Assembly: GCF_017744135.1 (NCBI RefSeq)
Contig: NZ_JAGHQU010000006.1
Span: forward strand, 1-64,000
Source: Endozoicomonas sp. G2_2
GTDB lineage: Bacteria; Pseudomonadota; Gammaproteobacteria; Nevskiales; Salinisphaeraceae
DNA: 64,000 nucleotides
Direction: 5' to 3'
The notes below the pieces were generated by a model, which made no database searches, was not told where the DNA came from, and saw nothing but the letters and a program-made list of their open reading frames with translations. The position numbers and the translations under genes were made by a program. Shown in pieces: positions 27,773 to 38,399 of this stretch (position 1 is its first letter; every line of letters starts with the position of its first letter).

Positions 27773-29341
27773 TTGGCGCATATCCGAAATCTCGTGATCG
27801 TCCTCGGCGATCAGCTCGACCCCGACCTGTCGGCGCTCGACGACTTCGACCCGGAGCGCGATGTCGTGTGGATGGCCGAGAACGAGACCGAGGCGAACCA
27901 TGTGTGGTGTCACAAGAAACGCCTCGTGCTGTTCTTCGCCGCCATGCGCCACTACCGCGTAGCGCTCGAAGACCGCGGCCTGGCCGTGGATTACCACGCG
28001 CTGACGGCCGACCGCCGACACGACAGCGGCAACGACTTCGACCAGATCCTCACGGCTGCGATCCGACGCCTGAAGCCGCACAGGCTGGTGATGACCGAAT
28101 GCGGTGATCACCGCGTACGCGAAGTGCTCGAGACCTGCGCCCGGAACAACAACCTGAACCTGCAAGTTCGCCCCGATCGACATTTCTATTGCGATCTGGA
28201 CGCGTTCGACGCCTGGGCCGACGAGCGCCAGTCGCTCGTGCTCGAGGACTTCTACCGCGCCATGCGCCGCGAGCACGGTGTGCTGATGGCCGGCGACAAG
28301 CCCCGCGGCGACGCCTGGAACTTCGACAAGTCCAATCGTGAAAGCTTCGGCCGCGGCGGGCCTTCCGACCTGCCCCATGTACGCCAGTTCCGACCCGACG
28401 AGATCACCCGTGACGTGATCGACATGGTCGACGCCCGCTACACCGAGCATCCCGGCGATACCGACGGGTTCGACCTTCCCGTGACGCACGACGAGGCACG
28501 CACCGCGCTGCGCGACTTCGTCGATCACCGGCTGGCGAACTTCGGCGCCTATCAGGACGCGCTCTGGACCAATCTGCAGTTCGGCTACCATTCGCGGCTG
28601 TCCGCCGCTTTGAACCTGCACCTGATCAGCCCGCGCGCGTGCGTCGACGCCGCGGTGGCCGCTTACGATAACGGCGACGCGCCGATCAACAGCGTCGAAG
28701 GCTTCGTGCGCCAGATCCTCGGCTGGCGCGAGTTCGTGCGCGGCGTCTACTGGCGCGAAATGCCCGGCTACATCCGGCGCAACGCGCTGCGTGCGCAACT
28801 GCCCGTTCCCAAGGCGTACTGGGACGGCGAAACCGACATGGCATGCGTGCGCGACGCAATGCGTAACGTGCTCGACAACGGCTACGCCCACCATATCCAG
28901 CGCCTCATGGTGCTCGGCCTGTTCGCGCTCAACGCCGGCGTGCACCCGCGCGCTTTTCACGACTGGCATATGGCGATGTATCTCGATGCCGTCGACTGGG
29001 TCAGCCTGCCCAACGCGCTGGGCATGAGCCAGTTCGGCGATGGCGGCATACTCGGTACGAAACCGTATTGCGCGTCGGGCAATTACATCAACAAGATGAG
29101 CAACTACTGCAAGAACTGTCGGTTCGATTACCGTAAGGCCACCGGCGAGAACGCATGTCCCGTCACCACGCTTTACTGGGATTTTCTCGACCGCAACCTC
29201 GACCAGTTCGCCCATAACCGCCGCATGGTTTTTCAGGTCAAGAATCTCGAGAAAAAGCGCGACGACCCCGAACTCATGAACGCCATTCGCGACGACGCCC
29301 GCGCCTTGCGCCGCCAGATCAAACAACAGGACTATCTATGA
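27773..29341 (+). CDS. FeS-cluster photolyase/cryptochrome (deoxyribodipyrimidine photolyase-related)
   Basis: The product has about 522 residues if TTG 27773 is used, which has a GGGAG ribosome site ten bases upstream; GTG 27743 is the alternative. The NLVIVLGDQLDPDLSALDD start, the FVRQILGWREFVRGVYWREM segment and the cysteine-rich YCKNCRFDYRKATGENACP segment identify the prokaryotic FeS-BCP group. Characterised members repair (6-4) photoproducts with FAD, a lumazine antenna and a 4Fe-4S cluster. It overlaps phrB by ATGA, so two repair enzymes for different UV lesions are coupled. Confidence 0.9.
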   Translation: MAHIRNLVIVLGDQLDPDLSALDDFDPERDVVWMAENETEANHVWCHKKRLVLFFAAMRHYRVALEDRGLAVDYHALTADRRHDSGNDFDQILTAAIRRLKPHRLVMTECGDHRVREVLETCARNNNLNLQVRPDRHFYCDLDAFDAWADERQSLVLEDFYRAMRREHGVLMAGDKPRGDAWNFDKSNRESFGRGGPSDLPHVRQFRPDEITRDVIDMVDARYTEHPGDTDGFDLPVTHDEARTALRDFVDHRLANFGAYQDALWTNLQFGYHSRLSAALNLHLISPRACVDAAVAAYDNGDAPINSVEGFVRQILGWREFVRGVYWREMPGYIRRNALRAQLPVPKAYWDGETDMACVRDAMRNVLDNGYAHHIQRLMVLGLFALNAGVHPRAFHDWHMAMYLDAVDWVSLPNALGMSQFGDGGILGTKPYCASGNYINKMSNYCKNCRFDYRKATGENACPVTTLYWDFLDRNLDQFAHNRRMVFQVKNLEKKRDDPELMNAIRDDARALRRQIKQQDYL

Positions 29342-30786
29342 AGCAACGAGCGATCGTCTGGTTTCGCCGCGACCTGCGGCTGGCCGATAATCCCGCGCTC
29401 AGCGCCGCGCTCAACAGCGATTTCGATGCCATCGTGCCGGTGTTCATTCATGCGCCGGACGAACTGGGCGCCTGGGCGCCCGGCGGCGCACAGCGCGTAT
29501 GGCTGCACCTCTCGCTCGAACGGTTGAGCGCGCAACTGGAAGCGCTGGGGTCGCGCCTGGTCATCCGTCACGGGCCGACCCGCGAAGCACTCGACACGCT
29601 AATCGAAGAAAGCGGCGCGACCGCCGTTTACTGGAACCGTCTATACGACCCGCTCACCATCGCCCGCGACAAAAACGTCAAGAAGCATCTCGACGACAGC
29701 GGCATCGAAACCGCCAGTTTTCAGGCGCACCTGCTGCACGAGCCATGGACTGTGGAAACCAAGCAGGGCGGCCCGTACAAGGTGTTCACGCCGTTCTGGA
29801 AGGCGATCAAGGACCGTAACCTGGACGCGCCGATGGCCGCGCCGGACGCCCTGCCCGAAGTCTGGTCGCGAATCGGCACCGAAACGCTGGCGTCCCTTGA
29901 CCTGCTGCCACGTCTCGACTGGGGTCGCAGAATACGCCAGACGTGGACGTCCGGCGAGGACGGCGCGCACGAACGCCTGGAGCAATTCCTCGATAACGCC
30001 ATCGACAACTACGACAACGATCGTGACCGCCCTGCTCGGCACGGCACGTCGTATCTTTCGCCGCATCTGCACTGGGGCGAGATCGGCCCGCGCCAGATCA
30101 TGCACCGGCTCGAGGAATGGCTCGACACGCACAGCGGCAAGGCGCTTCAGGATCATGCGGCCAGCTTTCGTAGCGAAATCGGCTGGCGCGAGTTCGCCCA
30201 CCACGTGCTCTATCACTTCCCCGAAACCCCGGAGAAGCCGCTCGACCCGCGCTTCGAGGCATTCCCCTGGTCCGGCGACGACGAAGGGCTCAAGCGCTGG
30301 CAACAGGGCCAGACCGGCATCCCCATGGTCGACGCCGGCATGCGTGAACTTTGGGCGACGGGCTATATGCACAATCGCCTGCGCATGACCGTCGCCTCGT
30401 TTCTGACCAAGAACCTGCGCGTGGCCTGGCAACACGGCGAACGCTGGTTCTGGGATACGCTGGTCGACGCGGATCTGGCAAACAACACGCTCGGCTGGCA
30501 ATGGGCCACCGGCTGCGGCGCGGATGCGGCGCCCTTCTTTCGCATCTTCAACCCGGCACGCCAGGGCGAACGCTTCGACAGCGACGGCGAATACGTGCGG
30601 CGCTGGGTACCCGAGCTCGCGAAGCTGGAAAACCGCCATATCCACGAACCATGGAAAGCACCCGCCAAGGCGCTGAAGGTCGCCGGTATCACGCTCGGTG
30701 ACGATTACCCGCAGCCGATCGTGGACCTGAAGGCATCGCGCCGCGAAGCACTGGAGGCATTCGACCAGATAAAGCAGTCGGACTGA
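29338..30786 (+). CDS. phrB: Class I CPD photolyase
   Basis: The product has 482 residues. The N-terminal antenna domain begins AIVWFRRDLRLADNPAL. The FAD domain shows TSYLSPHLHWGEI, the signature TGIPMVDAGMRELWATGYMH and the C-terminal WATGCGADAAPFFRIFNP. The enzyme splits cyclobutane pyrimidine dimers using blue light. Length is usual for class I. Its ATG overlaps the stop of the FeS photolyase gene. Transcription probably ends in the gap before orn, although the strong terminator there faces the other strand. Confidence 0.95.
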   Translation: MKQRAIVWFRRDLRLADNPALSAALNSDFDAIVPVFIHAPDELGAWAPGGAQRVWLHLSLERLSAQLEALGSRLVIRHGPTREALDTLIEESGATAVYWNRLYDPLTIARDKNVKKHLDDSGIETASFQAHLLHEPWTVETKQGGPYKVFTPFWKAIKDRNLDAPMAAPDALPEVWSRIGTETLASLDLLPRLDWGRRIRQTWTSGEDGAHERLEQFLDNAIDNYDNDRDRPARHGTSYLSPHLHWGEIGPRQIMHRLEEWLDTHSGKALQDHAASFRSEIGWREFAHHVLYHFPETPEKPLDPRFEAFPWSGDDEGLKRWQQGQTGIPMVDAGMRELWATGYMHNRLRMTVASFLTKNLRVAWQHGERWFWDTLVDADLANNTLGWQWATGCGADAAPFFRIFNPARQGERFDSDGEYVRRWVPELAKLENRHIHEPWKAPAKALKVAGITLGDDYPQPIVDLKASRREALEAFDQIKQSD

Positions 30787-30817
30787 CCCGCCGCAATCAA
30801 GACCCGGAAGACGGGGC

Positions 30818-30842
30818 AAAAAAAAGGCTCCCGAAGGAGCCT
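30818..30842 (-). terminator. Rho-independent terminator with UUCG loop
   Basis: On the minus strand AGGCTCC pairs with GGAGCCT around a TTCG tetraloop, followed at once by eight T residues (30818–30825 on the plus strand are A). This is a textbook intrinsic terminator. It would end the candidate small RNA or the orn transcript. On the plus strand the hairpin lacks a T-run, so it would stop phrB transcripts only weakly. Confidence 0.9.
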
Positions 30843-31017
30843 CCAATTGCTTATCCCGTACATTGTCGTTCTTGGTTACCCGTGCAGGACGGGCATCGAC
30901 GGGAAGCCAATTCTTTTTCTGCCCGGTGGGCGGTTTATGTTCTACCTCCGAAAGCGCCTGCCGCCTGTGTTATTTTCGTATGGAACGCTGCGGTTCCTGA
31001 AACGGCGCGTTTTCTTG
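30818..31017 (-). ncRNA. Candidate ~200-nt structured small RNA
   Basis: The gap 30787–31133 holds no credible protein gene. On the minus strand a good sigma70-type promoter (31024–31052) would start a transcript near 31017 that ends at a strong terminator (30818–30842). The sequence between can form three more hairpins: GGAAC/GTTCC at 30982–30997, GCCC/GGGC at 30921–30931, and CCCGT/ACGGG at 30879–30893. It does not match 6S, 4.5S, tmRNA or RNase P RNA. A long 3' UTR of orn is the alternative explanation. This is inference from signals only. Confidence 0.5.
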
Positions 31018-31023
31018 ATTTCT

Positions 31024-31052
31024 TTTGTACACGCCCGCCGTGCCGAGGTCAA
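31024..31052 (-). promoter_or_regulatory. Sigma70-type promoter for the candidate small RNA
   Basis: On the minus strand TTGACC (31047–31052) lies exactly 17 bases from TACAAA (31024–31029). The −35 box matches consensus at five of six positions and the −10 box at four of six. It points towards the terminator about 200 bp away, not towards any gene start. Confidence 0.55.
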
Positions 31053-31133
31053 TGTCGTCGCCGTGCCGGGCATTGCCAATCTATCCTGAACTCAGCGCCT
31101 TAGCGCTTGGCCCGCGCAACGACCGCGACGCGG

Positions 31134-31679
31134 CTACACCTTGAGCAGCGTACTCCGGTAATAGGCGAGTTCATCCAGCGAATCGCGAATATCGTCCATG
31201 GCGAGATGGCTGGATTTTTTGTTGAAGCCGGTCGCGATTTCCGGCGCCCAGCGCCGCGCCAGTTCCTTGAGCGTGCTCACATCGATATGCCGATAGTGAA
31301 AGAACGCTTCCAGTTCCGGCATGTAACGCGCAAGAAAGCGCCGGTCCTGGCAGATACTGTTGCCACACATCGGGGATTTGCCGGCCGGCAGGTATGCCGA
31401 CAGGAAATCGATCGTCTGGCGCTGAGCCTCGGCTTCATCGACATCGCTGTCTCGAACGCGGGCAGCCAGACCGGACCCGTTGTGCTGTCGCGTATTCCAC
31501 GCGTCCATCCCGTCGAGCAGCGCGTCGCTCTGGTGCACCGCAAGCACCGGACCTTCGGCGAGCACATTGAGGTTCTTGTCGGTGACGAGTGTGGCGATTT
31601 CGATGATGCGATCACTGTCCGGATCGAGGCCGGTCATTTCGAGATCGATCCAGATCAGGTTGTCTTCGGCGTAACTCAT
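31134..31679 (-). CDS. orn: Oligoribonuclease
   Basis: The product has 181 residues from ATG 31679, the usual family length. The frame is open upstream, but [18 protein letters not shown] is the standard start. It is a DEDDh exonuclease that degrades 2–5-nt RNA and pGpG. The acidic residues in IDLEMTGLD, the [20 protein letters not shown] segment and [18 protein letters not shown] are all visible. pGpG removal links it to c-di-GMP turnover, relevant to the GGDEF–EAL protein 4 kb away. It is divergent from phhB. Confidence 0.96.
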
Positions 31680-31804
31680 AAGGTCGGGATGGAAGATAAA
31701 GCCACATTGTGCGGCTGCCCTCGCCCACGCGCAAAGCACAACGACTATCCGCCCACGGTAGCGCCCCTGTTACGGTGAATGCATACCTCGACCAGGAGTA
31801 CGCA

Positions 31805-32137
31805 ATGACAGCACTTGCCGACCGCCGCTGTGCCCCATGCAATGCGGACAAGCCCGCGTTAGACACGCAGGCGATACAGAACCACCTCGACATGCTCTCC
31901 GGTCGCTGGGAGATCGACGCCGACGGGCGTCTGGTGGCGCGGCTCAAGTTCAAGAACTATTACCGCACCCAGGCATTCGTGAATGCCGTGGCCTATATCG
32001 CCCACCGCGAAGGCCATCACCCGGATATCAGCTTCGGCTATAACACCTGCCGGATCGAGCTGATCACGCACGCGATCGCCGGTCTGTCCGACAACGACTT
32101 CATCAGCGCCGCGAAGATCGACGCCCTGCTCGACTGA
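31805..32137 (+). CDS. phhB: Pterin-4a-carbinolamine dehydratase
   Basis: The product has 110 residues from ATG 31805, preceded by an AGGAG ribosome site; the open frame upstream of it has no family resemblance. The conserved FKNYYRTQAFVNAVAYIAHREGHHPDIS region contains the catalytic histidines, with the family motif at about residues 48–75. It recycles the oxidised pterin cofactor of phenylalanine hydroxylase. No phhA is in the window. It stands alone, between orn and recR. Confidence 0.92.
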   Translation: MTALADRRCAPCNADKPALDTQAIQNHLDMLSGRWEIDADGRLVARLKFKNYYRTQAFVNAVAYIAHREGHHPDISFGYNTCRIELITHAIAGLSDNDFISAAKIDALLD

Positions 32138-32156
32138 GCGCGCCGGTTCGGGCGAG

Positions 32157-32753
32157 CTAGAACGGCCGCCGGCCGGAAAACGCCTGGCTGAGTGTGCCCG
32201 AATCGACGTACTCGAGTTCGCCGCCGATCGGCACACCGTGCGCGATGCGCGATATGCCGGCATCGTGCTGGCGCGCCAGGTCGGCGATGTACTGGGCGGT
32301 GGCCTCGCCTTCCACGGTCGCGCCCGTGGCGAGAATCACTTCCTCGACGCTGCCGTCCGCGAGCCGCGAACGCAGAATGTCGAGGCCGAGTTCGTTCGGC
32401 CCTACACCGTCGATCGGCGACAGCCGACCGAGAAGCACGAAATAGCGCCCGGTGAAGTCCGTGTTCTGCTCGATCGCCATCACGTCCGCGGGGCTTTCCA
32501 CCACGCAGACCAATGCGCCATTGCGTCGTTCGTTGGCGCAGATGTCGCAGAGCTCGGCCTCGGTGAACATGCGACACGCGCGGCAGTGCTGCACGCTGGC
32601 CATCGCCTGTTCCACGGCTTGCGCCAGATAGCGCCCGCCGTCACGCTCGCGCTGCAACAGATGAAACGCCATGCGCTGGGCGCTTTTCGAGCCGACGCCG
32701 GGGAGCACGCGCAACGCGTCGATCAGACGTGTCAAAGCCGGCGAAAACGCCAT
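32157..32753 (-). CDS. recR: Recombination mediator protein RecR
   Basis: This 198-residue protein has an N-terminal helix-hairpin-helix ([20 protein letters not shown]), a four-cysteine zinc finger ([16 protein letters not shown]) and a Toprim domain ([13 protein letters not shown]). RecR loads RecA at gaps together with RecO and RecF. It is the last gene of the conserved dnaX–ybaB–recR operon, 63 bp after ybaB. Confidence 0.97.
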
Positions 32754-35284: not shown

Positions 35285-35411
35285 GTCGAAGGTGGCGGCC
35301 CGCGCCAGCGACACCCCGGCGCCCGAGTCTGCCGCTGCCGCTGCTCCCTTCCGGGCCTGACGGGGTTGACGGCATGTCGTCGCGGGGGCACCGACGCGGG
35401 CCACCCTCGAA
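35285..35411 (-). ncRNA. ffs: Signal recognition particle 4.5S RNA
   Basis: The minus strand carries the conserved apical loop GGCCCGGAAGGGAGCAGC near 35340–35360. The ends pair over a long stem: TCGAGGGTGG at the 5' side with CCACCTTCGA at the 3' side, and CCCGCG with CGCGGG next to it. This long hairpin with the GGAA/GGGAGCAG motif is diagnostic of bacterial SRP RNA, which binds Ffh. The location just upstream of dnaX is common in gammaproteobacteria. Ends are accurate to within a few bases only. Confidence 0.88.

Positions 35412-38306: not shown

Positions 38307-38399
<93 letters not shown>

Follow-up and report, generated by a model that had tools for sequence, protein, structure and literature searches.

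The minus strand between phrB and orn in the window (the whole 64,000-nucleotide stretch analysed here, part of the 3.73-Mb genome G000 of a salt-loving bacterium) carries what is almost certainly a real new RNA gene (Table 1), and we put at roughly three in four the probability that its product, the orn RNA, is a stand-alone sponge of another small RNA, whose gene lies between phaR and pnp (the phaR-pnp sRNA, hereafter the partner). The orn RNA looks like a decoy because its most conserved stretch complements the working part of the partner, which it would probably mop up, freeing genes for the use of varied carbon sources. An undescribed structured non-coding sRNA had been proposed at this place in an earlier note, a proposal that covariation and a position kept downstream of orn now support; that note named no function, and the role of sponge is added here.

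Table 1. Features of the orn RNA locus, in window coordinates, and of the partner RNA, in contig and locus coordinates.
Feature	Position	Strand	Basis or remark
-35 hexamer TTGACC	31047..31052	-	sequence; TTGA[C/T]N kept in 9/9 species
-10 hexamer TACAAA	31024..31029	-	sequence and nine-species comparison; 17 nt from -35
Predicted sponge sRNA, ~200 nt	30818..31017	-	start placed from promoter; conservation, covariation
Extended pairing site AGGC(G)CUUUCGGAGG(U)AGA	30941..30959	-	duplex energy
Core CUUUCGGAGG	30945..30954	-	exact complement of partner seed
Outer stem, 5' arm UCCCGU	30899..30904	-	helix 1
Inner hairpin GCCCGU-CCUGC-ACGGGU	30878..30894	-	helix 2; sequence variable across species, pairing kept
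A-rich unpaired strand AACCAAGAACGACAAUGU	30860..30877	-	sequence; A-rich in aligned species by eye
Outer stem, 3' arm ACGGGA	30854..30859	-	helix 1
Rho-independent terminator, UUCG loop, eight U	30818..30842	-	scan, sequence, covariation (helix 3)
orn (oligoribonuclease)	31134..31679	-	RNase_T match; upstream on same strand; orthologues used as anchor
phrB (DNA photolyase)	29338..30786	+	convergent neighbour of sponge gene
Partner (phaR-pnp sRNA), 92 nt	C30:93272-93364 of G000 (L090:1539-1631), outside window	phaR strand	model match

Folding energy on its own is little proof of structure in the orn RNA, the 205-nt segment being modestly low (z -1.98) with 6/200 shuffles equally low. Across an alignment of nine Salinisphaera sequences, 96.2% of 158 cells are paired and 11/19 pairs have changed on both sides; none of 500 shuffles reaches either measure and slid partners pair in at most 59.4% of cells, controls that matter because the alignment was fitted to the model. 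MAFFT alone placed the inner hairpin wrongly, and for this reason the remaining sequences were aligned with a covariance model derived from the pair G000 and G003 (the two-species model). Pairing is kept with compensatory changes in each of the three helices on which the covariation check suggested by the earlier note was run, namely the outer stem (89.6% of cells paired, two-sided change in 2/6 pairs), the inner hairpin (100%, 5/5) and the terminator (98.6%, 4/8). Most of the nine RNAs have a stem like UUCCCG/CGGGAA around a variable hairpin and an A-rich strand, followed by the terminator; the A-rich strand AACCAAGAACGACAAUGU is a possible distal-face site for Hfq, which is encoded in the genome.

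At 179-201 nt across the nine species, the orn RNA is longer than a minimal sponge and has structured parts beyond the core, as might be expected of a trans-acting sRNA that acts directly on mRNAs through its variable 5' region or A-rich strand and whose likeness to the partner is secondary. We nevertheless consider this unlikely, for the core CU[U/C]UCGGAGG, common to all nine RNAs, and one G immediately before it are all that is invariant in the first 112 positions, and the exact 10-nt complement of the core, CCTCCGAAAG, occurs just twice in G000, opposite the core itself and in the partner seed.

Orthologues of orn were found in 56/61 genomes, including 10/14 of the genus, and the sponge unit lies downstream of orn in 9/10 Salinisphaera genomes with orn (the window's own genome being counted in both cases). 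Of the phrB-orn position that the earlier note had suggested checking, the orn side is thus kept, whereas phrB is not always the neighbour: inspection by eye of G001 and G008 showed none in the 600 nt next to the orn stop. In G013, where orn and phrB are neighbours and the partner is present, no sponge lies between them; neither orn nor sponge was found in G005, G007, G009 and G010. Anchoring on orn was needed because DNA similarity alone gave convincing matches only in G003, G011, G004 and G012. Searched against 66.7 kb of sequence, the two-species model picks up the seven remaining orn loci (E 1.2e-15 to 5.1e-4), and in whole genomes it recovers 7/9 sponge loci, both parents included, missing G006 and G001, with unrelated terminators scoring as well as E 2.6e-5. 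A nine-species model searched against 85 genomes of the order gives E <=2.7e-16 in nine genomes, which are its own builders, and 17 other rows at E 9.7e-6 or worse; the sponge was not found outside Salinisphaera in this search. Ten of these 17 rows were inspected and resemble plain terminators that follow coding sequence, or intergenic stretches, TCGGAGG occurring on the matching strand in L222 and L230 only and hundreds of bases off. A sponge was also sought in G015 by the exact core, and rejected: the four complement sites there are the partner and three sites within frames that run for about 200 codons or more without a stop.

The promoter, TTGACC-17-TACAAA on the minus strand, had been read in the earlier note and its sequence is present. 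Scanning 29500-32500 for consensus promoters listed none, because the scan rule demands T at the last -10 position, and by the scan alone the promoter does not rise above chance. The support for this putative promoter is comparative across species: TTGA[C/T]N, exactly 17 nt and TA[C/A]AA[A/C] recur 3' of orn in 9/9 species, in spacers that otherwise differ, the search pattern having allowed 16-18 nt and having been written after the sequences had been seen. None of the -10 variants in the nine species (TACAAA, TAAAAA, TAAAAC, TACAAC) ends in T, whilst TTGA and the 17-nt spacing are constant; with no final T the promoter may depend on an activator. The terminator, also claimed previously, is confirmed as AGGCUCC-UUCG-GGAGCCU followed by U8 (T-run 30825-30818, minus strand), and it has the most pairs (9) among seven terminator-like sites in 29500-32500, where shuffles expect 2.6. 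Read-through from orn could make the segment, because it lies directly downstream on the same strand, and together with the empty consensus scan this would allow it to be an orn 3'UTR, or a chance terminator with hairpins, functionless on its own; we regard this as very improbable, given that the promoter pattern with its constant spacing stands between orn and the RNA in all nine species and that the helices carry compensatory changes.

The segment does not appear to be coding, in keeping with what had been noted before. The only ATG ORF in the ORF list that starts within it (30863, 52 aa) extends beyond the terminator, and no Shine-Dalgarno (SD) sequence was seen ahead of it by eye. A small ORF using GGAGG as its SD was considered and rejected, as the window has no start at SD distance after GGAGG and an ATG 10 nt after GGAGG in G004 is not common to the other species; no ORF common to the nine species was seen by eye. 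As to known RNAs, of which the earlier note recognised none, Rfam gives nothing at gathering on the segment, and at E <=10 it offers just weak matches that fall well short of that threshold: no known family (6S, CsrB, RsmY/Z and others) reaches gathering, and 6S identity is ruled out, a 6S gene over gathering lying elsewhere in the same genome. The window's only Rfam matches over gathering are an SRP RNA and a tRNA gene (35300-35396 and 38312-38399, both on the minus strand). No paper on Salinisphaera, Nevskiales or Solimonas sRNAs was among the matches listed from the open-licence PMC literature. GGA motifs are present (CAGGA, CGGAGG), yet an RNA titrating CsrA/RsmA through protein-binding loop GGA motifs, like RsmY/RsmZ, deserves little credence, since there is no Csr/Rsm family match, the GGA motifs are few by eye, and the conserved stretch extends past GGA to CUUUC, as fits the partner.

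The partner was first met through two weak model matches 3' of pnp (in G004 and G012), with the core sequence nearby. In G000 its neighbours are phaR (PHB_acc_N, PHB_acc), on the same strand, and pnp, with which it is convergent; it stands behind the promoter TTGACT-17-TATACT and consists of a 5' hairpin, single-stranded AAUCUCCUCC, a hairpin GAAAGGCC-UGAC-GGCCUUUC, UCGCAC and a terminator. It was found in 13/14 genomes of the genus and in G015 of another genus; AUCUCCUCC-GAAAGGCC and GGCCUUUCUCGCAC, the seed-hairpin core, are identical in all 14 aligned sequences, and the invariant anti-SD segment is AUCUCCUCCGAAAGGCC. Its structure is paired in 96.9% of 258 cells (slid controls <=69.1%), with two-sided changes in 3/5 pairs of the 5' hairpin; over the whole structure the four two-sided pairs are reached by 31/500 shuffles and the covariation score by none of 500. 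The partner model matches 80/85 genomes of the order at E <=0.1, with two to five copies in many, whilst its DNA pattern in the GTDB contig collection gives 11 stretches, ten of Salinisphaera and one of Salinisphaeraceae, a count that may omit records of the window's own genome. Other families gave more than 100 rows, and in all 16 partner loci loaded from these, both UCUCCUCC(A)GAAAG and CUUUCUCGCAC are present. PhaR or Pnp homologues lie within the 1.5-kb flanks, partly clipped by contig ends, of 14/14 Salinisphaeraceae loci (both in 8), and beside 13/16 of the loaded loci of other families (both in 8). By this comparison the partner is a predicted order-wide anti-SD sRNA family, often multicopy, with no Rfam entry over threshold.

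The partner mostly starts on a predicted PhaR-type operator, as does mmgR of S. meliloti. TGC-N3-GCAACA is found at 8/14 Salinisphaeraceae partner loci and is absent from those of G001, G002, G006, G008 and G009, and by eye from that of G013; TATA[CG]TGCAC[CT]GCAACA lies within 150 nt upstream in 15/16 loaded loci of other families. The partner start, TGCACCGCAACA, fits the TGC-N3-GCAA part of the Herbaspirillum PhbF motif TG[N]TGC[N]3GCAA, as given in excerpts of PMC3206438, and resembles the PhaR site CAATTGTGCACCGCAGCATTA listed for mmgR in excerpts of PMC12542648, where PhaR is described as the MmgR repressor. A link of the partner to PhaR is plausible on these motifs.

The core of the orn RNA is complementary to the active segment of another sRNA, and this complementarity has been kept in evolution, with an internal mismatch in G006 and G008. 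The extended site pairs with the partner's 20-nt segment at -27.2 kcal/mol, as low as in none of 1000 shuffles, and the orn RNA without its terminator gives, against the same segment, -26.8 to -32.4 kcal/mol in 9/9 species, where again none of 1000 shuffles per species is as low (shuffle means -13.7 to -16.9 kcal/mol); these statistics are post hoc, having been calculated after the core had been recognised, and they come from nine related species. Contiguous Watson-Crick runs measure 10, 10, 13 and 15 nt in G000, G003, G004 and G012, and 15, 15 and 14 nt in G011, G002 and G001. In G008 and G006 one C:A mismatch leaves a 7-nt run, matched by 122 and 387 of 2000 shuffles respectively; G:U pairs extend its other side and the whole duplex is still strong. 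The CUCCUCC of the partner is open (unpaired probability 0.92-0.99) and the core is partly paired (mean unpaired probability 0.16-0.88 for GGAGG, 0.07-0.55 for CU[U/C]UC). On direct reading, the core looks like the 3' arm of the partner hairpin (as GGCCUUUC in G004, G012, G011 and G002, slightly altered in the remaining five species) joined to the complement of its single strand, a likeness that suggests toehold pairing and strand displacement. The 17 family genomes hold 50 CCTCCGAAAG sites, i.e. seven sponge cores, 14 partner seeds and 29 others, five of which lie at a plausible ribosome site (L112, L114, L121, L130, L140); the remaining 24 were examined for stop-free frames and nearby starts only.

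Whilst the two RNA genes, their conservation, covariation and complementarity were computed, we infer transcription, Hfq dependence, the direction of regulation, strand displacement and the target set in the following scheme. Free partner would mask the SD sites of uptake and catabolic mRNAs, and the core would imitate the type of ribosome-binding site that the partner recognises. GGAGG of the core would provide a toehold by pairing with the single-stranded anti-SD CUCCUCC. Next to it, (GGCC)UUUC, a near-copy of the 3' arm of the partner hairpin, would take the place of that arm, so that the hairpin opens. Production of the sponge would sequester the partner, both RNAs perhaps decaying on Hfq, and would leave the mRNAs free to be translated. 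Pairing is symmetric, and the roles could in principle be reversed, with the phaR-pnp sRNA as the decoy and the orn RNA as the regulator of mRNAs; we find this hardly credible, as the partner occurs across the order, often in several copies, where the orn RNA was not found, and G000 contains no further exact complement of the orn core. With the partner order-wide and the sponge found in nine Salinisphaera only, the partner stands on its own, and it is the orn RNA that looks like a regulator of the other.

Carbon uptake and catabolism are a plausible target class for the partner, judged from ribosome sites. AUCUCCUCC complements sites of the form GGAGGAGAU, of which 95 distinct ones with ATG at SD distance exist in the 17 family genomes; several fall inside coding sequence, and L270, one of the 95, is only the complement of the G015 partner. 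In searches for SD-N0-9-ATG, the SD GGAGGAGAT gave 96 matches (95 distinct), and its one-base control forms GGAGGTGAT and GGAGGAAAT gave 56 and 31 (30 read). That GGAGGAGAT is commoner before ATG than either control in Salinisphaeraceae genomes is an observation that a purine preference at ribosome sites could explain in part. No GGAGGAGAT-ATG site occurs in G014 and G016, which have no partner match, and three occur in G010, the third family genome without a match (81% complete). For GGAGGAGAT, GGAGGTGAT and GGAGGAAAT respectively, 71, 20 and 12 ORFs of at least 90 aa follow, a cut-off that loses short genes such as TatA-like ones; they form 57, 13 and 12 clusters at 50% identity, 47, 8 and 8 of them with a Pfam family at E <=1e-8. 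Uptake systems, on our reading of the Pfam names, account for 20/47 clusters (DctP, DctM, TctC, Peripla_BP_4, SBP_bac_1, GntP, CitMHS and others) versus 3/16 in the pooled controls, and because this gives a Fisher p of 0.13 we claim no enrichment; many other clusters read as catabolic (thiolase, acyl-CoA dehydrogenase, VanA, catechol dioxygenase, acetone carboxylase). The strongest mRNA sites equal the sponge in energy, computed with the partner segment of the window's genome: -32.7 for allA of G010 and G013, and -32.0 for an acyl-CoA synthetase of G012. The ribosome site of the G002 homologue of this synthetase, with 77% identity across 400 aa, contains GGCCUUUCGGAGGA. The sponge of G001 and the allA ribosome site of G010 and G013 have 19 identical nucleotides in common. 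In G000 itself, 2/4 sites precede recognisable genes, those for DctP (L318, clustered with L153) and an OmpW-family protein (L158).

The best reading of the orn RNA by analogy is that it would work as CrfA of Caulobacter crescentus does on the alpha-R8 sRNAs SisA-D, which CrfA sequesters via their anti-SD core (PMC12559287). As far as excerpts of that paper go, both RNAs stand alone and have a G/A-rich site that complements the conserved anti-SD core of a family of sRNAs, the partner family is multicopy in many genera, and the role is carbon-related; CrfA is however alphaproteobacterial, pairs with the core UUUCCUCCCU rather than AUCUCCUCCGAAAGGCC including a hairpin arm, and is proven by experiment, whereas the Salinisphaera sponge is computed and likened to it by description. 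RosA of Bacillus subtilis (excerpts of PMC8216469) is likewise a G-rich sRNA, pairing with the C-rich, SD-masking central-metabolism sRNAs RoxS and FsrA, but it contains three G-rich regions, against the one core of the sponge, and CcpA represses it; this likeness would be convergent, not homologous.

The partner itself shares with MmgR/alpha-R8 (Rfam RF00519, suhB) its short length and an anti-SD segment, and its start resembles the PhaR site listed for mmgR (excerpts of PMC12542648), but it lacks the alpha-R8 10-mer UUUCCUCCCU and scores 17.5 bits at L090 and at best 22.2 (L205) against a gathering threshold of 41. With the Betaproteobacteria toxic sRNA RF02278 it shares a GUCUCCU start and a hairpin terminator, its best score being 25.9 bits against a threshold of 50; it is filed under neither family because it falls below both thresholds. 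Burkholderia cenocepacia and Herbaspirillum seropedicae each carry RF02278 in four copies, and the excerpts of PMC5688073 and PMC7011215 that report this contain neither a PhaR link nor a sponge for it. It is tempting, though rather doubtful, to see here a logic common to the Proteobacteria, in which PhaR, the polyhydroxybutyrate sensor, would control multicopy anti-SD sRNAs (MmgR/alpha-R8, possibly RF02278, and the phaR-pnp family) and lineages would evolve their own sponges, that of Salinisphaera being of a strand-invasion type whose anti-SD toehold opens the neighbouring hairpin.

Should the orn RNA be a sponge of the partner, an sRNA-sponge pair would be added in a little-studied order, with a simple code of one core against one seed and with G013, which has the partner and in which no sponge was found, as its natural comparison. 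The analysis has also uncovered a predicted order-wide anti-SD sRNA family, mostly on a PhaR-type operator, that keeps its place beside phaR and pnp; this operator and position make it directly testable, outside the Alphaproteobacteria, whether carbon storage is linked to the control of carbon uptake at translation.

Further sRNA-like stretches were observed along the way. Tandem partner copies occur at L388 and L389, three in about 520 bases (G019) and two in about 480 (G045), and at least four of the five start with TGC-N3-GCAACA. Near position 208 of L386 (G004:C7), TCTCCTCCGATGCCC stands with a degraded partner-like hairpin and a weak model match (E 1.5e-5), perhaps a decayed second copy. 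The stretch near 1300-1600 of L070 (G001:C4:113330-113426) has the look of a further C-rich sRNA; it is intergenic and contains two copies of the C-rich motif CCCCCGGTCCCCCCCTCGTGCCTCGG, together with AAAAACAACAA and a terminator.
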